Below, in pieces: positions 10,840 to 30,315 of a stretch of 35,590 nt of DNA. Under the pieces are notes generated by a model. The model had not been told where the DNA came from, ran no database searches, and worked only from the letters and a program-made list of their open reading frames with translations. A program made the position numbers and the translations under genes. How positions within the stretch are numbered: position 1 is the first letter of the stretch; each line of letters opens with the position of its first letter. The stretch is taken from contig JACQZJ010000022.1 in assembly GCA_016213895.1 (NCBI GenBank), forward strand, positions 1-35,590, written 5' to 3'. The stretch is from Planctomycetota bacterium (lineage in GTDB: Bacteria; Planctomycetota; B15-G4; JADJEK01).

Positions 10840-10900
10840 GGCGGGTTCCTGGCGTGCACCGCGGCCGCGCCCGCGCGCCGTATTTCCGCGCGCGCGGTCA

Positions 10901-11016: not shown

Positions 11017-12585
11017 GTGCCCGTGCTCCACTCCATCCACCGCGTTCTCGCCGGTGCTGTCTGCGTGACGGCGGCCTGCTTCTTCGCTCTTCCTTCCGCC
11101 AGCGTCGCCTACTCGCTGCTCTCCGGCAGCCTGGGTCTCGGCACCTCGGGGAACGGCTACCAGCGGGACGTCAGGGTGTACAACAACGCCCTCGACCCGT
11201 CGGCCAACTCCAACAAGGCGGCCGAGATCGGCTACCCCGGAGCGGATGGCGCGGTGCTCGCCAGCTGGAAAGCCGCGACCGCCTGGAACTCGGACAAGCA
11301 CAACGCCGGCAAGAACTTCGACTTCGACTTTCAGGGCTCGGTGACCAGCGCCGGCGACAGCGACTCCAACACCGTCTCCTGGACCTACACGCTCTGCGGC
11401 GGCGGCACGCTGGCCTACACGCTCACGCCGATCGCGAACGGCTGGGCCATCCGCTTGTGCGAGGGCTGGGTGTGGGCGAACGGCCCGGGCGAGCCGGCGC
11501 CGGGCCAGATCGACATCCAGGGGATCGTCGCGCACGAGCTGGGGCACGCCCTGGGACTCGGCCACAGCAGCGTGGGCTGCGGCGGCGACTGCGGCAACGA
11601 CGCGACCATGTGCGCCTACCTCTGCGGCAGCGGCAGCAACTTCCGCTCCCTCGAGGCGGATGATCTCGCCGGCCTCGAGGCGATCTACGGCGCCCGGCCG
11701 CCCGGCAAGCCGGAGATCACGGGCCTGAGCGGCTCGATGAGCAACGGCAACACGCTGATCGTCAAGGGCAAGGGCTTCCCGCCCTCGGTCAACGTCAAGT
11801 TCACGTCCAAGACCACTCAGGACACGGGCGCCATCCAGGGAGTGGTGTACGGCGTGGCGGCCGCAGCGCAGCAGCTCACGGTCACGATCCCCACGGCCGC
11901 GCGGGACGGCAACGTGCTGATCTGGGTGCCGGAAAGCTCCCTGCTGTCCAATCCCTTCCCCATCGACATCGGCGGCGCGCCGCCCACGCCGCCTGCGATC
12001 TACGGCATCGCGCCCGCGGTGGTCGCGGCCCTCGGCGGCAATACGGTCACGCTCAGCGGCAGCGCCTTCACCGGCGCCCTGCGCGTCGAGGTCGGCCCGG
12101 CGACCCTCTTGCCGGGCGCGGGATTCGTGATCCAGAGCGACTCGAGCATCGCTTTCGCGCCTCCGCCGGCGCAAGGCTCGCTCGACCCGGTGCCGGTCAT
12201 CGTGGCCACGGCCGGAGGGTCGAGCGCGCAGGTCACGCTCAGCTACGTGGAGACGTCGCCGCTCCTGCTGCTCGGGCCGCCGCACCTGGGGAACGGCTCC
12301 AGCGCCACCTACACGTGGGGCGGCAAGCCCGGGCAGCTCGCCATCCTGCTCGCGGGCGGCCAGAACGCGACGGTCGACTTCCAGGGAGCGCCCCTCCTCT
12401 GCGCCACGCTCTGGCTGCTCTTGCCGCAGACGGACGCCGCCGGCATCGGCTCGCTCTGCGCGCCCATCGACAACCTGCCGCTCGGAGTGGACGTGTGCGT
12501 GCAGATCGCCACGCTCGCGCCGCCGGGAACGGACCTCGGCAGCGTCGCGCTTTCCAATATCCACGTGGCCAAGGTCCTCTTCTAA
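11017..12585 (+). CDS. Secreted matrixin-like metalloprotease with IPT/TIG domains
   Basis: A 522-residue exported protein. The N-terminus has a signal peptide (hydrophobic 'VLAGAVCVTAACFFALPSAS'). The catalytic domain carries the metzincin zinc motif HELGHALGLGH (residues 173-183; three His ligands and the catalytic Glu) and a candidate Met-turn 'DATMCAYL'. Several Cys around it may form disulfides. Two beta-sandwich modules of the IPT/TIG type follow ('PEITGLSGSMSNGNTLIVKG' and 'AIYGIAPAVVAALGGNTVTLSG'). The last 105 residues or so ('LLLLGPPHLGNGSSATYTWG' onward) form a domain that also appears in two other secreted proteins here. It probably degrades proteins outside the cell or at the surface. 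The GTG at 11017 is the first start that keeps the signal peptide intact; its ribosome site is weak. Confidence 0.88.
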   Translation: MPVLHSIHRVLAGAVCVTAACFFALPSASVAYSLLSGSLGLGTSGNGYQRDVRVYNNALDPSANSNKAAEIGYPGADGAVLASWKAATAWNSDKHNAGKNFDFDFQGSVTSAGDSDSNTVSWTYTLCGGGTLAYTLTPIANGWAIRLCEGWVWANGPGEPAPGQIDIQGIVAHELGHALGLGHSSVGCGGDCGNDATMCAYLCGSGSNFRSLEADDLAGLEAIYGARPPGKPEITGLSGSMSNGNTLIVKGKGFPPSVNVKFTSKTTQDTGAIQGVVYGVAAAAQQLTVTIPTAARDGNVLIWVPESSLLSNPFPIDIGGAPPTPPAIYGIAPAVVAALGGNTVTLSGSAFTGALRVEVGPATLLPGAGFVIQSDSSIAFAPPPAQGSLDPVPVIVATAGGSSAQVTLSYVETSPLLLLGPPHLGNGSSATYTWGGKPGQLAILLAGGQNATVDFQGAPLLCATLWLLLPQTDAAGIGSLCAPIDNLPLGVDVCVQIATLAPPGTDLGSVALSNIHVAKVLF

Positions 12586-12602
12586 TCAACGCGTCCCGGC
12601 GC

Positions 12603-12608
12603 TAGTGT
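12603..12608 (+). promoter_or_regulatory. Possible -10 box before the membrane-TPR gene
   Basis: TAGTGT in the context gctagtgtcc lies 48 bp before the preferred GTG start at 12656. It resembles the -10 boxes at 10925 and 19495, but no matching -35 is obvious. Confidence 0.25.
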
Positions 12609-12655
12609 CCTGTGCGCTCGGCCCCGGCCCCTTCACTCGTGGAGCGCCCCGACCC

Positions 12656-15100
12656 GTGCGCGTCCTTTCTTCCCTGTTCACCGGCCTGCTGCTCGCGCCG
12701 CTCTTCGACCTGGGCGTGCGCCTGTGCCAGGAGGCGTCCGCGGGCGCGGCCCCGGGCCGCGTGCTGGCCGCGCTTGCGCTCGGCGGCTGCGCTCTCCTGG
12801 TCTCTCTCGTTCCGGCCGGCGCGGCCTCGGGCCGCCGCGGCCGGGCGCTCGCCGGCCTGATCCTGCTGGCCGGAGTGATCCTGGCTCTTCTGGCGGCCGG
12901 CGACGCCCGCCCCGGAAGGCCGCTCGTCGCGGCGGCGCTGTTCCTGCTGCCCGCCCTCGGCTTGGCGCTGCTCGGCGGCCAGGCGCCCCATCCAGCCGCC
13001 TTCCTCCTCGGTTCCGCGGCGGGGCTCTTCGTGCACGCGGCCTGGCTCATGCCCTCGTTCGGCCGCGCCGCTCCGGCCGTCCTCGCGGCCCTCTTCCTCG
13101 CGGTCGCGCGCCTCGCGGCGCCCGCGGCCCGGAGCGAGGTTACACGCCGGGCCTGGCAGGTCGATCTCATCCTCTGCGGGCTCGTTCTCGGCTTCGGCTT
13201 CGATCTGGCCCGGCCCTTCGTCCTGCAGCACACGAGCGGATGCGGTTTCAGCCACGCGGCCGTGAACGTCGTCCTCCTCCTGGGCGCGGGGCTCGGCGCG
13301 ATCCTGGCCATGCCGCGCCGGGGCGCGTGGATCTCCCGCGCGCTCTTGCCGTTCGTCGCGCTGCTGGCCCTCCTGAACCTCTTCTTCGCGCTGCGGAACG
13401 CCTCGCAACCGGCGGTGCTCAACGACCTGGCCTTCGCCGCCTCAGCGGACACGCGCCTGACCGAGCTGTCGCTCGCGCGCGCGCTCCTGGGGCTCGCGGC
13501 CATCGGCGCCGGCCTCTGGCTGCGGGACGCGCTCTCCCGCCTGCCCGCCTGCCGCGGAGCGGGCGTGCTGCTCCTCGCGCTCGGCGCGGGCGCGTTCCTG
13601 GCCCAGCGCGTGCTGGAGGGCGGCCTCCCCTGGCCGCGCGCGCTCCTGGGCGAGGAACGGGCGCTGGTCCGGCACCATCCAGCGCTCGAGATCCTGGAGG
13701 AGCAACTGGTCACGCCGGACGGCGTGCTGCGCCTCGCCCGGGACAACACGCTGGCGCAGGGCGAACCGCACCTCTGGTGGCAGGCGCGGCGCGCCTCGCG
13801 CATCGAGGCCTTTGCCTCGCTCGAGGCAGAGGAAGTGAGCCTCGCCGGCAGCCTGCTGCCCGCGGGCGGCAGGCTCCTTCTGATCGGCAACGCCAGCAAG
13901 CGCCACCGCGCCGCGTACACCGCGTCCCCGTTCTCGGAATACGCGGTCGCACCCTCGATCCCGGTGTTCCCGAGCGCGTCCTTGGCGGGAGAGGAGCGTC
14001 TCGACGCCTTCCGGCTCGGAGCGGGGCAGGATCCCATCGACGCGATCGTCTTCCTCTCCTCGGCCGCGCCGGCGTGGCGGCCAGCGCGGCTCTTGTCCCG
14101 GGAGGCGCTTGCCGGCGCGCGCGCCGCGCTCAGGCCGGGCGGCGTCCTGCTCGTCTGGTTCGACCTGCGCGTGAACTCCCTGGACGCGATCGCCGCGGTC
14201 TCCCTCGCCCTGCGAGAGGTCTTCGGGCCGGTCCGAACCTGGATCGCCCTCGACGGCCACGCCGGTCCGTTCCTCGCCCTCGAGGCCGGCCCGCTGCCTG
14301 ACGTGGAACAGGACGGCTTCTGCCGGCCGATCCCGGGCGAAGCGCTCACGGACGGCTGGTCGCGCCTGAACAGCATCCTTGATCCGGTGGTGGAAACGCG
14401 GCGCGTGCTCCGGCCGACGCGGTGCCCGCTGGCGGATGCGACCGAGCTCACGCGGCTCGCGCAGGCCTGCGAGCGCCGCGCCGCGCCTCACGTCGCCCAC
14501 CTGCTGCGCGCCCTGGCGATCCACTCGGCCAACTTCTTCGACGTGGAGTCCGCGACGAGCGACAACGAGCGCCACCGCATCGTCGACGAGGAGTGCGACG
14601 CGCTGGTCCTGGCGCTGGCCGCGGCGCCCGCTGACCCGCTGGTCATGAACCAGGTCAAGCGCTTCATCGCCCTGGCCCACGCCAAGGGCGAGTACGAGCG
14701 CCTCGACCGCGTCCTTTTGCCCGCTCTCGCGGCGCACCCCGGCGACGCCGGCCTGCACTACGTGTCCGGCAAGGCGAACTTCGAGCTGCAGGCCTTCGAC
14801 CTGGCCATCGACGACCTCGAGCTGGTGGTCCGCTCCGACCGCATGCAGTACGAGGCGTTCCTGCTGCTCGGGCTCTCGTACGCCAGCCTCGAGGAGCCGG
14901 ACTTCGCCGCGGCCATCTCCGCGCTGGAAGCGGCCCGGGAGCTGCGGCCGGACGCGCTCAAGGCGCTGCGCGCGCTGGGCGTCACGCTCTGCCGGGCCGG
15001 CCGCGAGGCCGAGGCCGAACCGTACCTCGAACGCGTGATCGGCGAGGCGCCGGCGGACGAGGAAGCGCGCGCCTACCTGGAGAGGATCCGCTCCAGGTAG
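12656..15100 (+). CDS. Polytopic membrane protein with spermidine-synthase-like and TPR domains
   Basis: An 814-residue protein. Residues 1-340 hold about ten hydrophobic helices. Residues 390-550 look like the nucleotide-binding half of a spermidine synthase or methyltransferase fold: strand 'GGRLLLIGNASKRH', then 'IDAIVFLSS', then 'ALRPGGVLLVWFDL'. The Gly-rich cofactor loop (GxGxG) is replaced by GNASK, so catalysis is doubtful. The last 220 residues are helical repeats of TPR type ('GLHYVSGKANFELQAFDLAI', 'EAFLLLGLSYASLEEPDFAA'). The architecture (membrane spermidine-synthase-like protein plus TPR) is known from large-genome bacteria but has no assigned role. I prefer the GTG at 12656 because a hydrophobic helix follows directly; a GTG at 12605 is possible. 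The gene stands between a secreted protease and proline dehydrogenase. Confidence 0.75.
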   Translation: MRVLSSLFTGLLLAPLFDLGVRLCQEASAGAAPGRVLAALALGGCALLVSLVPAGAASGRRGRALAGLILLAGVILALLAAGDARPGRPLVAAALFLLPALGLALLGGQAPHPAAFLLGSAAGLFVHAAWLMPSFGRAAPAVLAALFLAVARLAAPAARSEVTRRAWQVDLILCGLVLGFGFDLARPFVLQHTSGCGFSHAAVNVVLLLGAGLGAILAMPRRGAWISRALLPFVALLALLNLFFALRNASQPAVLNDLAFAASADTRLTELSLARALLGLAAIGAGLWLRDALSRLPACRGAGVLLLALGAGAFLAQRVLEGGLPWPRALLGEERALVRHHPALEILEEQLVTPDGVLRLARDNTLAQGEPHLWWQARRASRIEAFASLEAEEVSLAGSLLPAGGRLLLIGNASKRHRAAYTASPFSEYAVAPSIPVFPSASLAGEERLDAFRLGAGQDPIDAIVFLSSAAPAWRPARLLSREALAGARAALRPGGVLLVWFDLRVNSLDAIAAVSLALREVFGPVRTWIALDGHAGPFLALEAGPLPDVEQDGFCRPIPGEALTDGWSRLNSILDPVVETRRVLRPTRCPLADATELTRLAQACERRAAPHVAHLLRALAIHSANFFDVESATSDNERHRIVDEECDALVLALAAAPADPLVMNQVKRFIALAHAKGEYERLDRVLLPALAAHPGDAGLHYVSGKANFELQAFDLAIDDLELVVRSDRMQYEAFLLLGLSYASLEEPDFAAAISALEAARELRPDALKALRALGVTLCRAGREAEAEPYLERVIGEAPADEEARAYLERIRSR

Positions 15101-15152
15101 CCGCTCGCGGCCCGCCAGCCGGAAGCGCGCGCCGCGCAGCGCCGTGTTGCGG

Positions 15153-15158
15153 TAGTCT
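15153..15158 (+). promoter_or_regulatory. Possible -10 box before proline dehydrogenase
   Basis: TAGTCT in the context gcggtagtctgtgcc lies 31 bp before the ATG at 15190, in an 89-bp gap. No clear -35 is seen. Confidence 0.25.
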
Positions 15159-15189
15159 GTGCCATCCCCTTCGCCTGACGGTGAGACCG

Positions 15190-16092
15190 ATGAGCCTCTT
15201 CGATCGCGTGGTGGCCGCGTCCCTGCCCTTCGTTCCCAAGCCGATCGTCGGCATGGTCTCGCGCCGCTACATCGCGGGCGAGACGCTGGCGGACGCGGTG
15301 CGCGCGGTGAAGGAGCTGAACGCCGAGGGGGCGGCGGCGACCGTGGACGTGCTCGGCGAGGACACCAAGGAGCGCGCGCAGGCCGAGCGCACCGTCGCCG
15401 AGTACCGGCGCGTCATCGAGGCGATCGTCGAGAACGCGCTGCAGTGCAACATCTCGATCAAGCTGACCGCGCTCGGTCTGCTCATCGACGAGTCGCTCTG
15501 CCGCGACAACGTGCGCGCGATCCTCGCCGCCGCCCGGCCGCACGGCATGTTCGTGCGCATCGACATGGAGGACTCGAGCGTCACCACGCGCACGCTCGAC
15601 GTGTACCGCGCCGTGAGGAAGGAGTACGCCGCGGTGGGGCCGGTGCTGCAGGCCTACATGCGGCGCAGCCTGGCTGACGCCCGCAGCCTCCTCGCCGAGC
15701 CGCCGCTGAACGTGCGCCTGTGCAAGGGCATCTACAACGAGCCCGCGGGCGTGGCCTTCAAGGACTTCGAGGTGGTGCGCAGGTCCTACGCCAATTTGCT
15801 CGGGATCCTGCTGCGCGCGGGCGCCTGCGTGGGGATCGCCACGCACGACGCGCCCTTGCTCTACGAGGGGCTGCGTCTGGTCGACGAGCTTCGCCTCGCG
15901 CCCGAGGCCTACGAGTTCCAGATGCTCCTCGGCGTGATCCCGGAGATGCGCCGCGTCCTGATCAGCGAGGGGCACCGCCTGCGCGTCTACGTCCCCTTCG
16001 GCCAGAACTGGTACGGCTACTCCAGGCGCCGCCTGCGCGAGAACCCGAAGGTGGCCGGCTTCGTGCTGAAGAACATGTTCGCGCGGCGTTAG
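15190..16092 (+). CDS. putA: Proline dehydrogenase (monofunctional)
   Basis: A 300-residue FAD enzyme of the PRODH TIM-barrel family. It oxidises L-proline to 1-pyrroline-5-carboxylate and passes electrons to the quinone pool. The length matches stand-alone bacterial PRODH (about 300 residues), not the long bifunctional PutA. Visible family segments are 'ISIKLTALGL', 'VRIDMEDSSVT', 'LQAYMRRSLADA', 'VRLCKGIYNEP', 'GIATHDAPLL', 'YEFQMLLGVIPEMR' and, near the C-terminus, 'VYVPFGQNWYGYSRRRLRENP', which carries the substrate-binding Tyr/Arg cluster. The second enzyme of the pathway (P5C dehydrogenase) is not in the window. The start is the ATG at 15190, with a nearby GGTGAG; an in-frame GTG at 15181 adds three residues. 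Confidence 0.93.
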   Translation: MSLFDRVVAASLPFVPKPIVGMVSRRYIAGETLADAVRAVKELNAEGAAATVDVLGEDTKERAQAERTVAEYRRVIEAIVENALQCNISIKLTALGLLIDESLCRDNVRAILAAARPHGMFVRIDMEDSSVTTRTLDVYRAVRKEYAAVGPVLQAYMRRSLADARSLLAEPPLNVRLCKGIYNEPAGVAFKDFEVVRRSYANLLGILLRAGACVGIATHDAPLLYEGLRLVDELRLAPEAYEFQMLLGVIPEMRRVLISEGHRLRVYVPFGQNWYGYSRRRLRENPKVAGFVLKNMFARR

Positions 16093-16191
16093 CCCGAATA
16101 TCTCACCGCCGGTCCGCGCCTGGCCGGCCCTCGTCGCCGATCTCGTCGTTGCTCGTCGTCAAGAACTCCACCGCCGACGCGCGTCGCCGTC

Positions 16192-18330
16192 GTGGGCGCC
16201 GGCTTCATCTCCGCCTTCCACCTCGAGATCCTGGCGCGCACTCCGGACGTGGAGCTGGTCGCGGTGTGCGACGAGAACCTCGCGGCCGCGGAAGCGGCGG
16301 CGCGCCGCTGCGGCGTGCCCGCGGCCGTCGCGGAGATAGACCAGCTCGCGCGCCTGGGCGTGCACGTGGCCCACCTGGCCGTGCCTCCCGCCCTGCACTT
16401 CGACCTGACGCGGCGCCTGCTCGAGCTGGGCGTGGGAGTGTTCGCCGAGAAGCCCATGGCCTTGTCGAGCGCCGACGCCCTCGAGCTGCTGCGCCTGGCC
16501 TCGAGCCGGCGCCTGCCGCTCGCCGTGAACCACAACAACGTGTTCCACCCGGCCTTCCAGCGCCTGGTGCGCAGGGTGCGCGCGGGCGAGATCGGGCGCG
16601 TCGAGCACGTGCAGGTCACGTTCTCCGTGCCGCTGCGGCAGCTCGACGCCGGCGACTACTCGCACTGGATGTTCCGCGCGCCCCGCAACATCGTCTTCGA
16701 GCAGGCCACGCACCCGCTGAGCCAGCTCAACCACCTCCTCGGGCGCGTGCGGAGCGCGCAGACGACGCTTCTCTCGCAACGCGAGCTCCACCCCGGCCAA
16801 ACGTTCATCGACCGCTGGCTCACGGCCGCCGAGGCCGAGCGCGGAACAGCCCAGCTCTACATGGCGTTCGGCCAGCCCTTCACGCGCAGCACGCTGCAGG
16901 TCCTGGGGAGCGACGGCTGCCTCGAGGCCGACCTCTCCCACGACACGCTGTGCGGCGAGGAGAAGACCCTCTACCTCGACTTCTGGAACAGCTTTCTCGC
17001 CGGTGCGCGGCGCGCGCGCGCGCTGCGCCAGGACGCGCGGCGCGCGCTTTTCGGCTGGATGGGCGCGACGCTCGGCCTGCGCGCGCGCTCCGACCAGTTC
17101 TACGCCGGCATGCGCGCCAGCATCCAGGCCTTCCACCGCGCCCTGCGCGCGGGCGAGCCTCTGCCCAGCGACGCGCGGAGCGGCGTCGAGGTGAGCGAGT
17201 GGTGCGAGGCCGTGGCGGCGGGCGTTTCCGGCGCGGAGGCGCCGCGACCGCGCTTCCCCGCTCCCGGCGGTGCGCGCGGCGGCGAGGTGGTCGTGCTCGG
17301 CGCGACCGGGTTCATCGGCCGCCGCGTGGTGCGGAAGCTGCTCGAACGCGGCGTGCCGGTCACGGCCGTGGTGCGCCGCCTGCACTCCCTGCCCCCGGAG
17401 ATCAGCGAGCCGGCGCTCGCCGGCAAGTTGCGCGTGGTGCAGGGCGGCCTCCTGGACGCGGCCGCGCTCGCCCGCGCCCTGCGCGGCGCAACGGCCTGCA
17501 TCCACCTGGCCACGGGCGGCGGGAACACCTGGGACGAAGTCGAGCGCGCGATGGTGCGGGGCTCGCTCGGAGTCGCCGCCGCCTGCCGCGACGCGGGCGT
17601 GCGCCGCCTGGTCTACGTCTCGTCGATCGCGAGCCTCTACACCGGCCTGGACTGCGGGACGCGCGAGATCGCCGACTCGACCGAGACCGACCCGCTGCCG
17701 AACTGGCGGCCGGTCTACGCGCGCGGCAAGGCAGCCGCCGAGCGAGCGCTCCTCGAGTTCCAGAGCGAACATGACGTCGGCCTGATCATCGCGCGGCCGG
17801 GCGTCGTGCTCGGCGCGGGCACGCCCATGCAGCACAGCGGGCTCGGCCTGTGGGTGCGCGACAACCACTGCGTCGGCTGGGGAGCGGGGGAGCACCCGCT
17901 GCCGCTCGTGCTCGTGGACGACGTGGCCGAGGCGCTGGTGCGGGCCGGCCTCCATCGCGGCGCCGAGCTGCACGGCAAGGCGCTCAACCTGTGCGCGCGG
18001 CCGCCGCTCTCCGCGCGCGAGGTGGTGGCGGAGCTGGCGCGCGCCACCGGCAGGAGGATCGTGTTCCATCCGCGCTCCCTGGCTCTCAGCCAGGCCATGG
18101 AGATCGGCAAGTGGCTGGTCAAGGTGGCCGGGCGCCGGCCGGGGGCGGCCTTCCCCTCCTACCACGACTTGAAGGCGCGCTCCCTCGCGCCGCGCTTCTG
18201 CTGCGAGCTGGCGCGCGAAATCCTCGGCTGGCGACCGGTGGAGGAGCGCGAGGAGTTCCTCGAGCGCGCGGTCCGCGTTTACGGCCGCGCGCACGGCGGC
18301 GGCACGGGCGATGACCGGCGCGCGCCCTGA
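16192..18330 (+). CDS. Gfo/Idh/MocA oxidoreductase fused to extended SDR epimerase
   Basis: A 712-residue two-enzyme fusion. Residues 1-350 are a Gfo/Idh/MocA oxidoreductase: a Rossmann start 'GAGFISAFH', the EKP motif at 86-88, and a C-terminal alpha/beta sheet domain. Residues 365-712 are an extended SDR: 'VVLGATGFIGRRVV' (NAD-binding), 'YVSSIASLY' with the catalytic Ser, and YARGK with Tyr509 and Lys513. Both halves keep their key residues, so both are probably active on a sugar or sugar nucleotide. The GTG at 16192 is the first standard start, but it removes the first beta strand; the frame codes for TRVAVVGAG, and an ACG sits at 16177 where ATG would be expected. The 3' end overlaps the next glycosyltransferase gene by 20 nt, so the two are coupled. 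Confidence 0.85.
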   Translation: MGAGFISAFHLEILARTPDVELVAVCDENLAAAEAAARRCGVPAAVAEIDQLARLGVHVAHLAVPPALHFDLTRRLLELGVGVFAEKPMALSSADALELLRLASSRRLPLAVNHNNVFHPAFQRLVRRVRAGEIGRVEHVQVTFSVPLRQLDAGDYSHWMFRAPRNIVFEQATHPLSQLNHLLGRVRSAQTTLLSQRELHPGQTFIDRWLTAAEAERGTAQLYMAFGQPFTRSTLQVLGSDGCLEADLSHDTLCGEEKTLYLDFWNSFLAGARRARALRQDARRALFGWMGATLGLRARSDQFYAGMRASIQAFHRALRAGEPLPSDARSGVEVSEWCEAVAAGVSGAEAPRPRFPAPGGARGGEVVVLGATGFIGRRVVRKLLERGVPVTAVVRRLHSLPPEISEPALAGKLRVVQGGLLDAAALARALRGATACIHLATGGGNTWDEVERAMVRGSLGVAAACRDAGVRRLVYVSSIASLYTGLDCGTREIADSTETDPLPNWRPVYARGKAAAERALLEFQSEHDVGLIIARPGVVLGAGTPMQHSGLGLWVRDNHCVGWGAGEHPLPLVLVDDVAEALVRAGLHRGAELHGKALNLCARPPLSAREVVAELARATGRRIVFHPRSLALSQAMEIGKWLVKVAGRRPGAAFPSYHDLKARSLAPRFCCELAREILGWRPVEEREEFLERAVRVYGRAHGGGTGDDRRAP

Positions 18331-19459
18331 GTCTCCCCCCCTGCTCTTGCATGCTTTCGCCACGTTCGTGGCGGCCGGGCCGCAGGTGCGCGCCACGCTG
18401 CTCATGGCCGCCTTCGGACCGGCCTATCGCCACGCCATCGTCGCCATGGACGGCCGCGGCGAAGCCGCGTCTCTTCTTCCCGCCGGGGTCGAAGCGGAGA
18501 TGATCGATCCGCCCGCGGAACGAGGCATGGCGCGCCGCGCGCTCGCCATGCGCCGCCTGCTCGCGCGCGAGCGGCCGGACCTGCTGCTCACCTACAACTG
18601 GGGCAGCTTCGACGCCGTGCTCGCGGCACGCGCCCTTCCCGGCCTGCCTCACGTCCATCACGAGGACGGGTTCAACGCCGACGAGGCGCGGCAGCAGAAG
18701 GCGCGGCGCGTGCTGGCGCGCCGCCTCTGCCTGCCGCGTTGCCGGCGCGTGGTGGTCTGCTCGCGCCGCCTGCTCGCCATCGCGCTCGAGTCGTGGAAGC
18801 TCGAGCCCGGCCGCGTGCGGCTCATCCCAAACGGCGTGCGCGGCGAGAGCTTCTCTCCCGGCCCCTCGGCCGTGCGCGAGCGCCTCGACCTCCCCGCCGG
18901 CGCGCTCGTGATCGGCACCGTCGGTCACCTCCGCCCGGTGAAGAACGTGGCGCGGCTGATCGAGGCCTTCGCGCTGCTGCAGGAAGACGGCGCTGGCGGC
19001 CCCTTCCTCTTGATCGTGGGCGACGGGCCGGAGCGGGGCCGGCTGGAGGAGCTGGCGCGCTCGCTCCGGGAAGCCGCGCCGCGCGTTCGCTTCGCCGGAC
19101 ACCAGGCGGAGCTGCTGCCCTATTACCGCGCCTGCGACGTCTTCGCCCTGTCCTCGGACTCGGAGCAGCATCCGCTGGCGCTGCTCGAGGCGCTGGCCTG
19201 CGGTCTGCCCGCGGCGTCGACCGACGTGGGCGACGTGCGCGTTCTCTTGCCGCCGGAGCAGGGCCGCTTCCTGGCGCCGGCGAGCGCGGCGCCGGACGCC
19301 GCCGCGCTGGCCCGCCCCCTCGCCGAGCTGCTCGGCGACCGCGCGCTGCGCGTGCGCCTCGGCGCCCTGAACCGCGCGCACGTCCTCGAGCACTACTCGT
19401 TCGAAGGCATGCGCGACGCGTATCGCGAGGTCTACGACGCGGCGCTCGCGGGCGCGTGA
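18311..19459 (+). CDS. Glycosyltransferase family 4
   Basis: A 382-residue GT-B enzyme whose ATG lies inside the end of the oxidoreductase-epimerase fusion gene. Marks: 'LLLTYNWGSFDAVLAARA' and 'HVHHEDGFNADEA' in the acceptor domain, 'VVVCSRRLLAIAL' at the linker, 'GTVGHLRPVKNVARLI' at the start of the donor domain, and 'SSDSEQHPLALLEALACG' as the E-x7-E region. The 'TYNWG...HHEDGF' signature resembles the sugar transferases found near exosortase (XrtA/PEP-CTERM) polysaccharide loci, but no exosortase is visible here. The enzyme probably uses the sugar product of the fusion protein; this is inferred from the gene overlap. Confidence 0.9.
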   Translation: MTGARPESPPLLLHAFATFVAAGPQVRATLLMAAFGPAYRHAIVAMDGRGEAASLLPAGVEAEMIDPPAERGMARRALAMRRLLARERPDLLLTYNWGSFDAVLAARALPGLPHVHHEDGFNADEARQQKARRVLARRLCLPRCRRVVVCSRRLLAIALESWKLEPGRVRLIPNGVRGESFSPGPSAVRERLDLPAGALVIGTVGHLRPVKNVARLIEAFALLQEDGAGGPFLLIVGDGPERGRLEELARSLREAAPRVRFAGHQAELLPYYRACDVFALSSDSEQHPLALLEALACGLPAASTDVGDVRVLLPPEQGRFLAPASAAPDAAALARPLAELLGDRALRVRLGALNRAHVLEHYSFEGMRDAYREVYDAALAGA

Positions 19460-19494
19460 GCGCGCGCGGCGGGAGAGCCTGGCGCGCCGCTTCC

Positions 19495-19500
19495 TACAAT
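19495..19500 (+). promoter_or_regulatory. Putative -10 box before the receiver/PPDK_N gene
   Basis: TACAAT (context ttcctacaatcgagacg) lies 43 bp before the ATG at 19544 in an 84-bp gap. No good -35 hexamer is seen 16-18 bp upstream. A strong ribosome site AGGAG follows at 19534-19538. Confidence 0.4.
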
Positions 19501-19543
19501 CGAGACGCGGCCCCGGCATCAAGCAGCCGCAGCAGGAGCGAAC

Positions 19544-22500
19544 ATGTCTCTCTCAGGACGGGAAGTGCGGCCGCCGGAGTACGACGATCCGCTGCAGGGA
19601 TTCCGCGAGCTGATGCCGCGGCGCGTGCGCCGCATGCTGCTCGTCGGCAGCCGCTACGACTTCTTCGTGCTCTGGGAGGATGGGCAGCTCAGCCAGCTCC
19701 TGCTCAGCGAGTGGCTGCACGCCCATCTCAGCAACACCAAGTGGATCACGCTCGCGCTCAGCGGCGCCGAGGCCCTGGGCGCCTGCCGCGAGGAAGAGCT
19801 CGACCTGGTCATCGTCACCCCGCACATCCGCGACATGGACGCGCTCGAGCTGGGCCGCCAGCTGCGCGCCGCGCATCCCGAGCTGCCAGTCGTGCCGCTC
19901 GCCTTCGACAGCCAGGAGCTGGCGGCCTTCAGGAGCCAGCCGGACATCGCGCGCTTCGAGCGCCCCTTCCTCTGGCAGGGCGACTTCCGCCTGCTGCTCG
20001 GCATCGTGCAGTCGCTGGAGGATCGCTGGAACGTCGCCCCGGACACGGCGAGCGTCGGCGTCAGCGTCATCATCCTCATCGAGGACAGCGTGCACTACTA
20101 CTCGTCCTACCTGCCCATGATCTACGAGACGCTGCGCCGCCAGTCGCAGCGCGTGATCGCCGAGGGCACGAGCCTGCACCACAAGATCATGCGCCTGCGC
20201 GCCCGCCCCAAGATCCTGCACTGCACCACCTACGAGGAGGCGCTCGGCCACTTCCGCACCCAGCGCGCGCACCTGCTCGGCATCATCTCCGACGTCAAGT
20301 TCCCGCGCGGCGGCGTGGAAGACCGCGATGCCGGCCTGGACTTCGCGCGCATGGTGCGCGCGGAGATGCCGGACCTGCCGATCCTGCTGCAGACGAAGGA
20401 GCCGGCGCTCAGGCGGCAGGCCGAGGAGATCAAGGCGGCGATGGTCCTCAAGGGCTCCCCCACCGTGCTCGAGGAGCTCGGGCAGTTCATGCGCGGGAGT
20501 TTCGGCTTCGGCAGCTTCGTCTTCGTGGAGGACGGCCAGAAGATCGCGGAAGCGGAGGACCTGAGGCAGCTCGAGCAGCTCCTGCAGATCGTGCCGCTCG
20601 ACGTGGTGCTGCGCCACGCCGAGAGCAACCACTTCTCCACCTGGCTCAAGGCGCGCACCGAGTTCGGCCTGGCCGAGACGCTGCGCGACGCGCAGGTCTC
20701 CGACTTTCCCACGGGCGAGGCGGTGCGCGACTACCTCGTGACCTCGCTGCGCGAGTTCCGCCACGGGCGCCAGAGCGGCAGCATCGCCGACTTCGACCCC
20801 GCGGAGTTCAACCCGACCATGAGCTTCGCGCGCATCGGCGAAGGGTCGCTCGGCGGCAAGGCGCGCGGCCTCGGCTTCGTGCGCACCCTGCTGCATCGCT
20901 ATCAGGTCAGGAAGCGCTTCCCCGAGGTCGAGATCCAGGTGCCGGCGGCCGTCGTGCTGGCCACGCACGTCTTCGACCAGTTCCTCGAGGAAAACGGTCT
21001 GCGCGAGTTCGCCATGGAGGAGCAGGACGACGCCGCCATCGAGCGGCGCTTCATCGAGGCGCGCCTGCCCGCGGACGTCTTCCGCCAGCTCACGCAGTTC
21101 CTGGATCTCGTGGACTATCCGCTGGCGGTGCGCTCATCGAGCCTGCTCGAGGACTCGCAGAACTTCTCCCTCACCGGCGTCTACCGCACCTACATGGTCC
21201 CGAACAGCCACCCGGACCGCGAGGTGCGCCTCAAGCAGGTCGTGAACGCGGTGAAGCGCGTGTACGCGAGCACCTTCTTCCAGAACGTCAAGAGCTGCTT
21301 CCGGCCCGCGCCCTACCGCCTCGAGGAAGAGAAGATGGCGGTCATCATCCAGCGCGTGGTCGGGTCGCGGCACGGCAACCGTTTCTATCCCGACTTCTCC
21401 GGCACCGTGCGCTCGCACAACTTCTACCCCACGCCGCCGCTCAAGCACGAGGACGGCATCGCGCGCCTCGCCCTCGGCCTGGGCGAGGAGGTGGTCAGCG
21501 GCGAGAAGGCGGTCAGCTTCAGCCCCAAGTACCCGCAGCACCCGATCCAGTTCTCCACGCCCGCGCAGATCCTGGAGAACTCGCAGACCGAGTTCTTCGC
21601 GCTCGAGCTGGAGGGGCCGGAGAGCCGGCCCGATCCAGCGGCCGAGCTCAAGCTGGCGCGCCTCGGCCTGGCGGCGGCCATCGAGGACGACATGCTGGCC
21701 TGGAGCGGCTCGGTCTACTCGCCGGAGAACGACGCGGTCTACGACGGCGTGGGGCGGCCCGGCGTGCCGCTCGTCACTTTCTTCCCCGTCCTCAAGCAGG
21801 GGCTTTTCCCGCTGGCGGAGATTCTGCGCGTGCTCATGGACGTGGGCGCGCGCGCCATGAACATGCCGGTGGAGATCGAGTTCGCGGCCAATCTCTCGCC
21901 GCCCCCTGGGCAGAAGCGCGAGGTGGCGTTCCTGCAGCTGCGTCCCTTCACCATCGCCTCGCGGCCGGAGAACCTCGTCCTCGACGACCTGGACGTCGCG
22001 CGCGTGCTCTGCGCCAGCACGCTCGTGCTCGGCCACGGCGTGGTGGACGACGTCCGCGACATCGTCGTGGTCGACCGCGACCGCTTCGACCGCTCGCACA
22101 GCCTCGTCGCCGCGCAGGAGGTCGCGGACCTCAACGCCCGGCTGGTGAGCGCGGGGACGCGCTACCTGCTGATCGGCGTGGGGCGCTGGGGATCGGCCGA
22201 CCCCTGGCTCGGCATCCCGATCGCCTGGCCGCAGATCAACGGCGCGCGCGTGATCGTCGAGTCCGACTTCAAGGACATGCACACCACGCCGTCGCAAGGG
22301 TCCCACTTCTTCCAGAACCTGACGACATCAGGCACCGGCTACTTCACGGTCGGCGGCGCCAACCAGGTGGGCTACGTGGACTGGGAGTGGCTGGCCGCGC
22401 GGCCGGCAGAGGTCGAGCTGACCTTCGTGCGGCATCTGCGGCTCGAGAAGCCGCTCAGGACCATGACCTCGATCTTCCGGTCGTCGCCCGGTAGCACGAC

Positions 22501-22684
22501 CCGGCCCCGGAGAGTCGCGCCGTGGGGCGTCGCCAGCACCAGGTCGGCCGCTCGCTTCTCCTCCGGCGCCAGCGTGAAGGCGCTCGGAGCGACCACCCCG
22601 TGTCTCGTGAAGGTCTCGTGGTGCCGGCCGACGATCACGCACCGGATCACCCAGGTCCCCTCGCACAAGCGTGGGAAGAAATAG
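19544..22684 (+). CDS. Double receiver-like, PEP/pyruvate-binding (PPDK_N) protein
   Basis: A 1046-residue cytoplasmic protein. Residues 30-160 and 175-335 look like two receiver domains. In the first, the phosphoacceptor position is not Asp ('LVIVTPHIRDMDALELG'); the second keeps an Asp in 'IISDVKFPRGG'. Residues 425-850 form an ATP-grasp PPDK N-terminal domain, with 'GSLGGKARGLGFV' (Lys439), 'PLAVRSSSLLEDSQ' (Arg530) and 'LTGVYRTYM'. The phosphohistidine swivel domain and the PEP-binding barrel of PEP synthase are absent, so it is not a complete PEP synthase; phosphotransfer to or from a partner is possible. Start ATG with AGGAG at 5 nt. From about 22460 the frame reads antisense to the facing sigma gene; the last 75 residues or so ('TMTSIFRSSPGSTTRPRRV' onward) look non-native. 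Confidence 0.82.
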   Translation: MSLSGREVRPPEYDDPLQGFRELMPRRVRRMLLVGSRYDFFVLWEDGQLSQLLLSEWLHAHLSNTKWITLALSGAEALGACREEELDLVIVTPHIRDMDALELGRQLRAAHPELPVVPLAFDSQELAAFRSQPDIARFERPFLWQGDFRLLLGIVQSLEDRWNVAPDTASVGVSVIILIEDSVHYYSSYLPMIYETLRRQSQRVIAEGTSLHHKIMRLRARPKILHCTTYEEALGHFRTQRAHLLGIISDVKFPRGGVEDRDAGLDFARMVRAEMPDLPILLQTKEPALRRQAEEIKAAMVLKGSPTVLEELGQFMRGSFGFGSFVFVEDGQKIAEAEDLRQLEQLLQIVPLDVVLRHAESNHFSTWLKARTEFGLAETLRDAQVSDFPTGEAVRDYLVTSLREFRHGRQSGSIADFDPAEFNPTMSFARIGEGSLGGKARGLGFVRTLLHRYQVRKRFPEVEIQVPAAVVLATHVFDQFLEENGLREFAMEEQDDAAIERRFIEARLPADVFRQLTQFLDLVDYPLAVRSSSLLEDSQNFSLTGVYRTYMVPNSHPDREVRLKQVVNAVKRVYASTFFQNVKSCFRPAPYRLEEEKMAVIIQRVVGSRHGNRFYPDFSGTVRSHNFYPTPPLKHEDGIARLALGLGEEVVSGEKAVSFSPKYPQHPIQFSTPAQILENSQTEFFALELEGPESRPDPAAELKLARLGLAAAIEDDMLAWSGSVYSPENDAVYDGVGRPGVPLVTFFPVLKQGLFPLAEILRVLMDVGARAMNMPVEIEFAANLSPPPGQKREVAFLQLRPFTIASRPENLVLDDLDVARVLCASTLVLGHGVVDDVRDIVVVDRDRFDRSHSLVAAQEVADLNARLVSAGTRYLLIGVGRWGSADPWLGIPIAWPQINGARVIVESDFKDMHTTPSQGSHFFQNLTTSGTGYFTVGGANQVGYVDWEWLAARPAEVELTFVRHLRLEKPLRTMTSIFRSSPGSTTRPRRVAPWGVASTRSAARFSSGASVKALGATTPCLVKVSWCRPTITHRITQVPSHKRGKK

Positions 22685-25506
22685 CGCCCGGCCGCGTCAC
22701 TGGTCACCTGCTGTTCGGACAAGGTCCACCGGTCCGAAATCCCTGTGCCACCAAGCGAGAGATTGAGCGTCACGTCGGGAACAAGACTGCCGCTCTCGTC
22801 ACGCACCAAGCCCGAGAGCGTCGCCGGCTCCTGGAGCTCCGCCAGCATCTCGCGGATCTCGCCACGCTCCACGCTCAGGTCGGTCAGGATGAACGGCGCG
22901 TACCCTTCCGCCTCGACGAGCACGCTCGCAAGGCTCGCCGGTGAGAGCGCGACGAAGCAGGTCCCGTTGGAGTTCGATTCGGTGCGGCTCCAGCCTTCGC
23001 TCCCTCCGCTGGCACCTTCGGTGGCAATACGGCAGCGGAAACGCAGGATCGGCCGCCCGTCGCGCGCGGCCAGAATGCGGAGCACCACGCCGGAGACGGC
23101 CTCGACCGCAACTCTCACCTCCCGATCGCCCGTGGCCACCGCCGTGACGAACGACGGCCAGGCCTGGCTGCCGGGCTGCCCGGTGCGCGCGGCCGTGAGG
23201 AGATAGGGCCCCGGGAAGAGACCCTCGAGGGCGAACCGGCCATCCGCGCCCGCGAGGGCGTACGTCGCCTCGTTGCAGTGCACTTCGCCGGCGGCTCGGA
23301 CGCGCAGATCAGGGCTGTAGACGTCCATCTTCGCCCGCACCACGGCGCCCGCCACGGGCCGATCACCCGCGTCCACCACCACACCGCTGATCGACTCGCC
23401 GTCCGCCAGCTCGATGGTCAGGTCGGTGTCCGAACTCCATTCCCGGCGCCCGGATTCCCAGGGCAAGAGCCCTTGGGCGCGGGCGTTCAGGATCGCGTCT
23501 CCCGACACCTGTTGGAGGGCGAAGCACCCCGCATCGTCAGTCCGGGTCGTAAGCGACGCGTGGGGCCAGCAGCGCAACGTCACACACGCGCCGGGGACTG
23601 GCGCGCGATTCAACGCGCGCACCACGCGACCTCGAATCGTGTATCCGCGCGCCAGGCGAATCGGAGCGAGCTCACAGTCCGGCGCGTCCGGGACGACGGC
23701 GTCGCAGGGGGAGCAGTCGGCGAAGTCGGGATGCGAGAGCCACAAGGTGTAGGAGAGGTACTCGGTCGGGCAGACTCCCTCGAACAGGAAGTGGCCCGAC
23801 GCGTCGGTCGTTGTCTCCGTGGAAGAGGGCCCCGTCGGGTTCCGGCACCCGTCCCTGACGGCCCGTCGCGTCAGACGCACCACCACGCCCTCGATCGGCA
23901 GTCCCTCCGGATCGAGCACGGTTCCGGCCAGTCTGCGGGTCCGTGGCAGCAGAAGCTCGACCGCGGTCGCGAGGTCGCTGCCCTCAAGCGCGGAGAGCCA
24001 GACCGTGAAACCCACGTGGCCCGGCGCAGCAACGTCGAACACGCTCGATTCGAAGCCCTGCCGGCAGGCAACGCGAAAGAGCCCGTTCCCCAGCGACTCC
24101 GCCGGGCCCGGTGCGAACTCGGGATCGTCCAGAGGACGTCTCGTGGCGGCGTCGAGCGCACGGACGAGGCAGACGCCGCCGTGCGTCGACTCGGGCACGA
24201 GCGGAACCAGCAGCGTCCGCCCAGGATCCGGCCGGAACGGGCTCGCGGTCCACGAGATGAACCCGCCGCTGCTGACCTCGAGCGAGAAGCACGTCGGCGC
24301 GACGACGACCTCGAACTCCCCGGCCGCGTCCGCGCGCCACGAGAGAGTGCCGCCAGCGTCTCGTTCGATCCTCGCGCTGACCGCCGCGCCAGGAACCGGC
24401 GCGCCCGTGTCCGCGTTCACGACGCGGCCCGTCACCCTCACGCCCGGATGGAGGAACACGTCGAGCGACTCGCCGGGCAGGATGGCGGCGCGCTGCACGG
24501 CGACGAAGCCGTCCGCACGGAACTCGAAGTCGAGCGGCTCGGGACCGGGAGGCCGAAAGACCGCGTGCTCCCCGGACCGGAAGCACTCGACCGCCGCGAA
24601 CGGCAGGAGATCCTCACTCCCGCTGCGCCGCGCAAGGATCTCGACGTCATCGAGCAGGCCGCCGAACGGATCGAGGAGCCGAAACGTGATCCCCGAGAAC
24701 TCGGCGGGGGGCTCGCCGTCGCCGGCCACGACCGCCAGCCGCACGGAGTCGCCATCCCGTCCGCCGCCAGGGACCTTGGCTTCGTCGTCGATCAGATGCG
24801 GCGCAGCGCTTGTACCCGCCGGAGCAGACACGTTGGTGCCGGAGGACGAGGACGGACCCACGACAACCAGCAGGATCGAGGCGGTGACCGCCAAGAGAAG
24901 TGCCGCGCACACGACCAGGGCGCCGCCTGCCAGCGCCGGCCCGGCGGCCACCGGGAGAGCGCGGTCCACGCCCGCGAGCACGACGAGACCGCTCATCCAG
25001 CTCCGGTCCCGGCCGTACGCGCTCTCCAGCCGGGCGCGCAGCGTTGCGCGGGCGCGGTGCAGCCGGGTCCGCACGGTCGCCACCGGCACACCCAAAAACA
25101 TGGCGATCTCGTCCGGTCGCCGCTCCTCGAAGTAACGCAGCAGGACGGCCGTGCGGTACGGTTCGTCGAGCGCGAACACGGCCTCCACGACACGGCGCCT
25201 GAGCTCCTCGCGCTCGAGGATCTCCTCGGGCCAGGGGACGCGCGGCTCGGCCCCGTGCGCCGCTTCCCGCCGCGCGCGGCTCGCCGCTGCCCTCTTGGAG
25301 GCCCGAACCACGTTGGTCGCGACCGTCCTGAGCCACCCGGCGAGCCGCGCCGGCTTCTCCGGTTCGCGCTCGAGCGCCCGCAGGAACGTCTCCTGCACGA
25401 CGTCGTCGGCCGCGTTCTCGTCCAGGACCAGCCCGCGCGCCACGGCCCGCACGAAGCCGGCGTGCGAGAGCAGGGTCTCGAGGGTCAAAGGCACAGGCGC
25501 ATCCAT
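22372..25506 (-). CDS. ECF sigma factor fused to membrane segment and carboxypeptidase-regulatory-like region
   Basis: A 1044-residue protein. Residues 15-75 are sigma70 region 2 ('ADDVVQETFLRAL', 'LAGWLRTVATNVV'). Residues 105-160 are region 4, with the helix-turn-helix 'RRPDEIAMFLGVPVATVRTRLHRAR'-type segment. Residues 189-217 are one strong transmembrane helix. The remaining 820 residues or so are about eight beta domains of the carboxypeptidase-regulatory-like type ('VTGRVVNADTGAPVPGAAVSA', 'LAGTVLDPEGLPIEGVVVRL', 'ISGVVVDAGDRPVAGAVVRA'), which should lie outside the cytoplasm. An external signal could thus be linked directly to promoter recognition, with no separate anti-sigma factor. 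The start is the ATG at 25506. The last 30 residues or so, from about 22460 down, are antisense of the facing gene and probably not native. Confidence 0.88.
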   Translation of the reverse strand: MDAPVPLTLETLLSHAGFVRAVARGLVLDENAADDVVQETFLRALEREPEKPARLAGWLRTVATNVVRASKRAAASRARREAAHGAEPRVPWPEEILEREELRRRVVEAVFALDEPYRTAVLLRYFEERRPDEIAMFLGVPVATVRTRLHRARATLRARLESAYGRDRSWMSGLVVLAGVDRALPVAAGPALAGGALVVCAALLLAVTASILLVVVGPSSSSGTNVSAPAGTSAAPHLIDDEAKVPGGGRDGDSVRLAVVAGDGEPPAEFSGITFRLLDPFGGLLDDVEILARRSGSEDLLPFAAVECFRSGEHAVFRPPGPEPLDFEFRADGFVAVQRAAILPGESLDVFLHPGVRVTGRVVNADTGAPVPGAAVSARIERDAGGTLSWRADAAGEFEVVVAPTCFSLEVSSGGFISWTASPFRPDPGRTLLVPLVPESTHGGVCLVRALDAATRRPLDDPEFAPGPAESLGNGLFRVACRQGFESSVFDVAAPGHVGFTVWLSALEGSDLATAVELLLPRTRRLAGTVLDPEGLPIEGVVVRLTRRAVRDGCRNPTGPSSTETTTDASGHFLFEGVCPTEYLSYTLWLSHPDFADCSPCDAVVPDAPDCELAPIRLARGYTIRGRVVRALNRAPVPGACVTLRCWPHASLTTRTDDAGCFALQQVSGDAILNARAQGLLPWESGRREWSSDTDLTIELADGESISGVVVDAGDRPVAGAVVRAKMDVYSPDLRVRAAGEVHCNEATYALAGADGRFALEGLFPGPYLLTAARTGQPGSQAWPSFVTAVATGDREVRVAVEAVSGVVLRILAARDGRPILRFRCRIATEGASGGSEGWSRTESNSNGTCFVALSPASLASVLVEAEGYAPFILTDLSVERGEIREMLAELQEPATLSGLVRDESGSLVPDVTLNLSLGGTGISDRWTLSEQQVTSDAAGRYFFPRLCEGTWVIRCVIVGRHHETFTRHGVVAPSAFTLAPEEKRAADLVLATPHGATLRGRVVLPGDDRKIEVMVLSGFSSRRCRTKVSSTSAGRAASHSQST

Positions 25507-25616
25507 TGGCGAGAGGCTCCGGTCCGCGCCGAGACGATGCCGTGCACGTCCGGGACATTTCACCTTTTCGCAGGCGCCGGATCCCGCGCGCCGCCGGGAA
25601 GGGCGCGCCCGAGACG

Positions 25617-25668
25617 GAGAAACCCGCGAACCAGCCGGCGCGCTGGCCGGCCCGTTCGCGGGTCTCTC
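25617..25668. terminator. Strong hairpin between gdhA and the sigma factor gene
   Basis: acccgcgaac (25622-25631) pairs perfectly with gttcgcgggt (25654-25663). After one A-C mismatch, gaga (25617-25620) pairs with tctc (25665-25668). The loop itself can fold (ccagc/gctgg). It lies 67 bp beyond the gdhA stop on the minus strand. There is no T-run on either strand, so a Rho-independent terminator is only probable; RNA 3'-end stabilisation is an alternative. The rest of the 228-bp gap (25507-25734) holds nothing else I can support. Confidence 0.5.
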
Positions 25669-25734
25669 GCGCTCAGACCGACGACCGGCGGGCTGCGCGC
25701 CCCCCGGCCTTCGGCCCGCGGTCTTCAGCCGATG

Positions 25735-27111
<1,377 letters not shown>

Positions 27112-27148
27112 CTAGTGATATCGAACGGACCAAAATGTGGAATTGGGC

Positions 27149-27178
27149 ATCTTAACTCGCGGTGGAACGGGCCGGCAA
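27149..27178 (-). promoter_or_regulatory. Putative promoter of gdhA
   Basis: On the minus strand TTGCCG (27173-27178) and TAAGAT (27149-27154) are separated by 18 bp and lie about 47 bp before the ATG. The region from 27103 to 27180 is noticeably AT-richer than its surroundings. The rest of the 209-bp gap shows nothing else. Confidence 0.4.
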
Positions 27179-27311
27179 TCAAAACAGCCAACTTTCCGCT
27201 GAGGCCTCGCCCGCGCAGCGCTCCAGCGGATGGCCCCAGGATCGTCTGTTCGCAGCCGCGGTTCAGGAACGAACTTACGAAACCGGGCCCGCGCCGCCTG
27301 CCGGCGCCTTC

Positions 27312-28811
27312 CTACTTCCCGTGCGCCCAGGCCGGCATCTGGCCGAGGTCGATGCTGAAGACCAGCGGGCCCAGGAAGTGCATCGCGGCCACGATGATCA
27401 CCGCACCCAGCAGGTTCAGGAGGAACCCGGTGCGGGCCAGGTCGATGATCCTGAGCCTCCCCGTGCCGAAGATGATCGCGTTCGGCGGGGTGGCCACGGG
27501 CAGCATGAAGGCGCAGGAGCAGGAGAGCGCCGCCGGCACCATGAGGTAGAGGGGGTTCAGGCTGATGGTCTGGCAGAGCCCCGCCAAGACCGGCAGGGAC
27601 ATCTCCGCGGTCGCGGTGTTCGACGTCAGCTCGGTGAGGAACGTGATCACCATGCACACCACGCCGAGCAGCGCGACCGGACCGAGATCGCTCGCTCCCT
27701 TCAGGCTCTCGCCGATCCACTGCGAGAGGCCGGAGTCCACGAAGCCCCTGGCGAGGGCGAAGCCGCCGCCGAACAGGAGCACGATGCCCCAGGGCAGCCG
27801 CTCCGCCGTGGCCCAGTCCATGAGGCGCTCGCCGCGCCGCGCGCCAGAGGGGAGCAGGAACAAGAGAAGCGCCATGCCGATCGCCACGGTGCCGTCCGAA
27901 AGGAACGCCGGCGTGGGCAGGAAGCGCCCCCAGCCAGGAACCACGAACGCGCCGACGTCGATCTCCTCGCGGAAGAGCCAGAGCACGACCAGGATCACGA
28001 AGTCGGCGAACACCAGGCGCTCCGCCAGGGACATCTTGCCCAGCTCGCGGTGCTGGCGGCGCAGCACCTCCGGGTCCACCGCGATCTCGCCGCGGCGCGG
28101 GGCGAAGAACAGCCAGAGCAGCCCCCAGGCGGCCAGGAGGAGCGCGAGCGACACCGGCGCGGCGAAGACGAACCAGGAGGCGAACGAGATGTCGGGCGCC
28201 TCCGGGAAGCAGATGACCAGGAGCCGCGCGAAGGACAGGTTCGGCGGCGTGCCGACCAGGGTGGCGATGCCGCCGATCGAGGCGCCGTAGGCCACGCCGA
28301 TGAGCAACGCGACCGCGAAGCGCCCCACCTTCTCGCGGCCGCTCTCCTCCTCCATCTTGACGACGATGGCCAGCACGATGGTGACCATCATCATGGCCGC
28401 CGCGGTGTTGGAGATCCACATCGACAGGGCCCAGGTGGCGACCATGAAGCCGAGGAGGATCCGTCCGGGACGCGCGCCGAAGAGAAGCAGGATGCGGAGC
28501 GCGATGCGGCGGTGCAGGTTCCAGCGCTCCATGGCGAGCGCCACGATGAACCCGCCCAGGAACAGGAAGATGGTCGCGTTGAAGTACTGCGCCGCCACGT
28601 CCTTGCTGTTCATCACGCCGAAGAGCGGGAAGAGGATCATGGGCAGGAGCGACGTGGCGGCGAGCGGCAGCGCCTCGCCGATCCACCAGACCGCCATGAG
28701 CAGCGCCACCGCGGCGGTCGCGGTGACCTGCGGCTTCCCGGGCACGAGATCGCAGAAAAGAAATAGCGCCGCGGCCAGGATCGGTCCCAGGTAGAGGGTC
28801 GCCCGGCGCAC
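27312..28811 (-). CDS. SLC13/DASS-type anion:sodium symporter
   Basis: A 499-residue polytopic inner-membrane protein with about 12 hydrophobic segments. DASS proteins import dicarboxylates, citrate or sulfate with sodium. The two signature SNT motifs are both present, each in a re-entrant hairpin: 'MWISNTAAAMMM' and 'TELTSNTATAEM'. Each is followed by a Pro-rich element ('VGTPPNLSF' and 'VATPPNAIIFG'), as in the structurally known VcINDY. A hydrophilic loop in the middle ('FFAPRRGEIAVDPEVLRRQH') is usual. The start is a GTG at 28811, with GGGGAGGG just upstream. It follows the SEC-C gene by 14 nt, so the two form an operon. The substrate is not certain; a C4-dicarboxylate is the most likely. 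Confidence 0.92.
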   Translation of the reverse strand: MRRATLYLGPILAAALFLFCDLVPGKPQVTATAAVALLMAVWWIGEALPLAATSLLPMILFPLFGVMNSKDVAAQYFNATIFLFLGGFIVALAMERWNLHRRIALRILLLFGARPGRILLGFMVATWALSMWISNTAAAMMMVTIVLAIVVKMEEESGREKVGRFAVALLIGVAYGASIGGIATLVGTPPNLSFARLLVICFPEAPDISFASWFVFAAPVSLALLLAAWGLLWLFFAPRRGEIAVDPEVLRRQHRELGKMSLAERLVFADFVILVVLWLFREEIDVGAFVVPGWGRFLPTPAFLSDGTVAIGMALLLFLLPSGARRGERLMDWATAERLPWGIVLLFGGGFALARGFVDSGLSQWIGESLKGASDLGPVALLGVVCMVITFLTELTSNTATAEMSLPVLAGLCQTISLNPLYLMVPAALSCSCAFMLPVATPPNAIIFGTGRLRIIDLARTGFLLNLLGAVIIVAAMHFLGPLVFSIDLGQMPAWAHGK

Positions 28812-28825
28812 GGTTCCCTCCCCGT

Positions 28826-29317
<492 letters not shown>

Positions 29318-29575
29318 GGCGGGCTCCAGACGCCGTTCGGCGATCTGCGCGGGCGGAAGTCGGAGCGGGATCCTACGCCCGCCGGCCGCCGATCTCCAGG
29401 ATCGGCGCACGCTGCACCGCGTCCCGCAGGGCTGATCCGCTTCGGGGCGAGCCTGGGGGGCGGTGGCTGACCAGGCTGCTCCCTTCGATTCGGCTGCAAC
29501 AGGCTTTGGGCCGCCGTCGTATCTGCGGGGAATCCGCCCTCGAGACCGGCACGCAGCGACTGCCTGGAGGCCGCC

Positions 29576-30211
29576 ATGAAAGACGCGACGATGGATCGGA
29601 AAGCGTTCCTCAAGTGCGTGGGCGCAACCTGCGCCGGCTCCTGCCTCTGCGCCCTGGGCCTGAGCGGAGCGTCGGGCCAGGAAGAGGCTCCGTCCCCGCA
29701 GGAGGAAGCGCCCCCCTCCAAACCGGAGGGCGCGCCCCGCGCGGTGAAGCGCATCGAGTTCGCCGAGTCCTGGGTCAAGCGCCTCATGCGCGTGCTCGAC
29801 GAGAACCTCGACGCCGAGACGGCGAAGAAGGTGATGATGGCGAATGGCGCGGCCTGCTTCCGCGAGTACATCCGCGCCACGGGGCAGACGATACGTCCTG
29901 TCTCGCGCGACGAGCTCGCGGCATTCATCCAGGCCAACGTCAAGGACGACTCCATCCGCATCGAGGGGGACGTCATCCACTTCCAGTTCAAGTCCAGCGC
30001 CGAGACCGGAAAGCCCGCGCCCGAGGGAGCCTGTCTCTGCTCGCTCGTGGAAACCAAGCCCGCCGGCCTCTCCGGCACCTACTGCCTGTGCTCGGTGGGA
30101 TACGTCAAGGAGTGGCATGAGCAGCTCCTTGGGCGGCCGGTCGAGGTGGAGCTGGTCGACTCGGTCCTGAGAGGCGGCGCGCGCTGCCGTTTCCAGATCA
30201 CCTTGTCCTGA
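29576..30211 (+). CDS. Cys-rich exported protein of unknown function
   Basis: A 211-residue protein. The N-terminus 'MDRKAFLKCVGATCAGSCLCALGLSGASG' in part has an RK-x-FLK pattern like a Tat signal, followed by a short hydrophobic stretch with three Cys; a lipobox reading is also possible. A Pro/Glu-rich linker ('EEAPSPQEEAPPSKPEGAP') follows, then a globular domain of about 150 residues. Cys pairs occur as 'ACLCSLVETK' and 'TYCLCSVGYVKEW', and the end reads 'LLGRPVEVELVDSVLRGGAR'-'CRFQITL', like the C-terminal part of V4R or thiazoline-carboxylate-hydrolase-like small-ligand domains. That similarity is from memory and not certain. The start is the ATG at 29576, or the one at 29591. It stands alone between divergent and tandem neighbours. 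Confidence 0.65.
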   Translation: MKDATMDRKAFLKCVGATCAGSCLCALGLSGASGQEEAPSPQEEAPPSKPEGAPRAVKRIEFAESWVKRLMRVLDENLDAETAKKVMMANGAACFREYIRATGQTIRPVSRDELAAFIQANVKDDSIRIEGDVIHFQFKSSAETGKPAPEGACLCSLVETKPAGLSGTYCLCSVGYVKEWHEQLLGRPVEVELVDSVLRGGARCRFQITLS

Positions 30212-30272
30212 ACGAGCTTCCGCCTCTTGCCTCGCGGGCAGGGCCGCGCTGGCCGCGGGGCTCGCGCGCGGG

Positions 30273-30278: not shown

Positions 30279-30315
30279 CGCCGTGTTCAAGTCACTCCAA
30301 CCGGGAGACAGCGCG

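Follow-up and report, generated by a model that had tools for sequence, protein, structure and literature searches.

Long overlaps between convergent genes were surveyed in 2008 (PMC2478687): of 178 that exceeded 60 bp, 124 were classed as 3'-end extensions and 54 as possibly real. Gene fusions born of deletions, in which the start of one open reading frame is joined to the end of another, have been described as one way in which new genes arise (PMC12803068, preprint 2026). Here we characterize a locus in a genome of a Planctomycetota bacterium (assembly GCA_016213895.1, contig JACQZJ010000022.1), at which a gene for a receiver-like protein with a PPDK_N domain, the ATP-binding domain of phosphoenolpyruvate (PEP) synthase, meets a gene for a sigma-factor fusion protein on the opposite strand. 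The window, by which we mean the whole analysed stretch of 35,590 nucleotides, is the entire contig 15 of a 5.5-Mb assembly in 218 contigs and contains no N. The stop codons of the two genes, at 22682-22684 on the plus and 22372-22374 on the minus strand, define a tail-to-tail overlap of exactly 313 bp, as a preliminary description of this DNA had stated, which places the pair among the convergent overlaps of more than 60 bp.

Results

What is left of the natural C-terminus of the PPDK_N protein? Our homologue set for this gene comprised 80 sequences from many phyla, found by scanning bacterial species at one genome each, and five closer relatives; 84 of these 85 can be read past residue 971, one locus reaching a contig end earlier, and another leaves its contig inside the tail. 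The protein matches its family as far as 'RHLRLEKPL' (residue 971, base 22456); there the resemblance ends, with homology stopping at 22456-22459 and all 84 homologues differing beyond, just where the preliminary description had the protein leave its family, near 'RHLRLEKPLR'. Each of the 84 carries, with variations, the tail pattern V-x-[IM]-[DN]-G-x(4)-G-V-I-L-K-P, exemplified by a 16-residue motif like 'VVKINGRxxxGVILKP', and wherever the stop can be seen, it comes 15-38 residues past 'PL'. The window protein continues for 75 residues past 'PL', and these hold no trace of the motif. A frameshift concealing the normal tail is ruled out, as the motif occurs in no downstream plus-strand frame, and natural tails of unusual length are ruled out by the homologue ends of both proteins. 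Of 77 residues shared without exception by 40 homologues, the window protein retains 75 up to this point, while the conserved tail motif is missing.

In Pfam, the protein matches Response_reg (1.3e-7, residues 45-122) and PPDK_N (2.2e-33, residues 435-808). Receiver-like folds precede PPDK_N in the part encoded by 19544-22459, and the model of a homologue matches the tandem-receiver protein PleD. No phosphohistidine or PEP-binding domain was recognised, so the protein does not amount to a complete PEP synthase or pyruvate phosphate dikinase (PPDK). The structure predicted for L092, an intact homologue, puts the lost residues, with good confidence, in a long beta strand (968-982), of which they make up the second half, and in its hairpin partner (987-991). 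The model of the window protein still has a hairpin here, for which the alignment was probably the guide; residues 991-1046 are disordered in it. Judging from these models, the domains are probably kept despite the lost end.

The sigma fusion, in which Pfam recognises Sigma70_r2, Sigma70_r4_2 and five stretches of CarboxypepD_reg, has its nearest relative in G001, the sole other genome of the same genus among the 14 that entered our order-level comparison (contig 29, L062:13713-17021; protein 64-65% identical). There the protein extends ~76 residues beyond 'RKIEVVV', to '...VEVELVVADLR', finishing another beta domain; the window is without these residues. A more distant paralogue likewise continues beyond the window's break. 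The DNA is 82% identical to that of G001 over 22459-22542, and homology ends at 22459-22465, in agreement with an earlier reading in which the sigma pattern breaks after 'DDRKIEVMV'. A search for the lost end elsewhere in the window's own assembly did not find it.

The homologies of the two genes thus stop at most 9 bp apart, and because both end there, we place the breakpoint at 22457-22465. This upholds the earlier claim that the natural ends of both proteins are lost at one point near 22460. With the remainder alike, the 3' end is unlike that of orthologues both in the plus gene (all 84 homologues) and in the sigma gene (the same-genus relative and the paralogue). The residues past the junction had been read as antisense of the facing gene, and the GC content by codon position bears this out: it is 0.49/0.70/0.91 in the plus tail versus 0.70/0.41/0.96 in the gene body, and 0.43/0.73/0.93 in the sigma tail, the same antisense profile. 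The plus-tail profile is the one expected when the sigma frame is read in antisense. A functional antisense overlap would be expected to have tails conserved in relatives, but neither tail is: the plus homologues are without the plus tail, and the sigma relatives continue differently. The preliminary description would have been refuted by homologues of both proteins with these exact tails, and none had them. No Pfam domain matched the new tails above noise. When the two genes were joined at random in ~17,000 trials, 12% gave two tails that equalled or exceeded the observed lengths, and the length of the overlap therefore carries no signal of selection. Coordinates are collected in Table 1.

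Table 1. Features of the overlap locus and its neighbour (window coordinates)
Feature	Position	Strand	Remarks
Receiver-like + PPDK_N (PEP-synthase ATP-binding) gene	19544-22684	+	1046 aa; natural C-terminus gone, 3' end extended
Extracytoplasmic function (ECF) sigma factor / hydrophobic segment / CarboxypepD_reg beta-domain fusion	22372-25563	-	1063 aa; last domain truncated
Acquired tail of the plus gene (75 aa), reading antisense to the sigma gene	22457-22684	+	absent in 84/84 homologues
Acquired tail of the sigma fusion (~30 aa), reading antisense to the PPDK_N gene	22372-22464	-	relatives without counterpart
Breakpoint/junction	22457-22465	none	ends of plus-gene and sigma homologies
Glutamate dehydrogenase (GDH) gene, old PPDK_N neighbour	25735-27102	-	95% identical in same-genus genome G001

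Do the two sides of the junction belong together? G001 is collinear with the window on both, over 10883-20368 (contig 305, 88% nucleotide identity) and over 25617-32573 (contig 29, 87-91% over most of that stretch). In relatives at the level of order and phylum (L066, L022 and others), the PPDK_N and GDH genes are adjacent and convergent, without an intervening sigma gene; the order-level relative G009 has no sigma block between the two. Both flanks therefore share one chromosomal neighbourhood, and G001 collinearity together with the adjacency of PPDK_N and GDH in relatives indicates that left and right belong together.

Contig 305 of G001 stops within the PPDK_N gene, after residue 275; contig 29 stops just past the sigma gene, in a gene with weak similarity to REP-associated/IS200-like transposases, an assignment scored on the longer copy upstream of the G001 sigma gene, where NCBIfam and Pfam scores lie below their cut-offs. 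The sigma side of the missing interval is thus present in G001, while the 3' part of PPDK_N is unassembled. The sigma gene of G001 has transposase-like genes on both sides, in the same orientation (L062:12828-13778 and 16977-17348); in the window there is none between the GDH and sigma genes.

The sigma fusion differs from that of G001 by a synonymous divergence (dS) of 0.62 (65% protein and 73% nucleotide identity), and its flanking genes by 0.11-0.19, at 95-97% identity (PPDK_N 0.11, GDH 0.19). This divergence reflects either an exchange of alleles between lineages or much faster evolution of the gene.

More widely, receiver/PPDK_N and GDH genes lie at most 700 bp apart in 47 homologous loci from many phyla (including L066, L092 and L133), with GDH upstream on the same strand in 31 and convergent in 6. 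Their proximity suggests a functional link, on which a literature search found nothing.

Discussion

Both natural ends are gone at one point, the surroundings are conserved, and the tails have the composition of antisense. We consider it probable, at about 0.72, that both 3' ends were trimmed by one local deletion between the convergent genes. Such a deletion would have taken the last ~16 residues and the stop codon of PPDK_N, the interval between the genes, and the last ~76 residues and the stop codon of the sigma fusion, and the cut ends would have been joined at the breakpoint. Each gene would then read into the antisense of its partner until the first chance stop, gaining 75 and ~30 residues, respectively, that would have no protein ancestry in those frames. 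The deletion presumably happened in the cell lineage and not in assembly, and the transposase-like repeat at the matching place in G001 may have belonged to the lost interval or figured in its history. The likely outcome is a PPDK_N protein that retains its domains but ends in a disturbed last beta-hairpin and a disordered tail, and a sigma fusion without most of its outermost beta domain. In the window sequence, which does not include the lost interval, the sequence up to 40 bp from the breakpoint holds no direct or inverted repeats of at least 8 bp. The junction and the end of the G001 repeat have 9 bp in common, CCGCTCAGG, but in an orientation that does not suit a deletion; we set this match aside as likely chance.

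Three observations weigh against this reading. The undeleted locus is whole in no genome, as G001 is unassembled from PPDK_N residue 276 to the end of the gene. A plain deletion does not account for the dS of the sigma gene, so far above that of its neighbours. Finally, the junction is known from a single genome of the species, as assembled sequence alone.

The preliminary description had offered deletion and misassembly side by side, a choice of readings that our data support. That unrelated contigs were joined is unlikely in view of the G001-collinear flanks and the old PPDK_N/GDH neighbourhood; synteny on both sides argues for a local deletion rather than a union of unrelated pieces, as does the failure to find the sigma end on other contigs. 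Another error is conceivable, in which the assembler or a chimeric template skipped the stretch between the genes, which in G001 holds the repeated transposase-like element. The fragmentation of the genome into 218 contigs would fit, as would the break of the G001 contig within the repeat, on this very side of the sigma gene. However, k-mer assemblers require a longer shared word or spanning reads to make a join, and no repeat of 8 bp or more surrounds the junction. The window is also free of N, the missing sigma end is on no other contig, and the approximately nine relatives of the element in the window's genome reach no more than 78-83% identity when each is compared with the G001 copy. We therefore regard a skipped stretch as improbable.

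Equally improbable in our estimate is that, instead of a deletion in a resident block, a divergent sigma-fusion allele was imported, either by recombination or as an insertion, and its 3' breakpoint fell in the PPDK_N gene. The elevated divergence of the sigma gene between two genomes of one genus speaks for it, as do the transposase-like genes that flank the block on both sides in G001 and the absence of the block between PPDK_N and GDH in G009. However, position, orientation and neighbours are identical to those in G001, and divergence would be raised as well if the sigma gene alone evolved faster. Even an imported allele must still have lost the sigma end, so that this scenario differs from deletion in route only.

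There is a very slim chance that the read-through is expressed and that the tails, or the 313 bp of complementary mRNA ends, couple the expression of both genes or alter sensing by the sigma fusion; if so, one deletion would have created two new C-termini at once. Least probable of all is a functional antisense overlap that is being maintained and whose new tails have a role: while both frames are open and possibly real long overlaps occur mainly in convergent pairs (PMC2478687), the tails here are found in no homologue, have the codon-position composition of antisense, are predicted to be disordered in the plus protein, and attain lengths that 12% of random joins give.

How, then, does the locus relate to what has been described? 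It resembles group iii of PMC2478687, the convergent overlaps by 3' extension, in that both genes differ from their orthologues at the 3' end. The causes named for that class are frameshifts and point mutations of the stop codon; here, both genes have in addition lost real C-terminal residues, and as they did so at one point, a deletion across both ends is suggested. For annotation, the gene calls of 1046 and 1063 aa should be taken with a warning, since they do not reflect the natural ends of their families. Like the fusions of PMC12803068, the locus would on our reading owe to a genomic deletion both the joining of parts of two genes and the new frame ends drawn from existing DNA. However, the genes here face each other, and each gains antisense sequence, not its partner's own C-terminus; a search through the preprint turned up neither 'antisense' nor 'opposite strand'. 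The value of the case is local: beyond annotation, it offers surveys of gene birth, which look at fusions in the same direction, a clean single-locus example of what one deletion can do at once: two stop codons gone, and two proteins with antisense-derived tails. It is an unusual yet ordinary mutation and not a new kind of gene system, combining the two described kinds in a single event with two antisense-derived ends.
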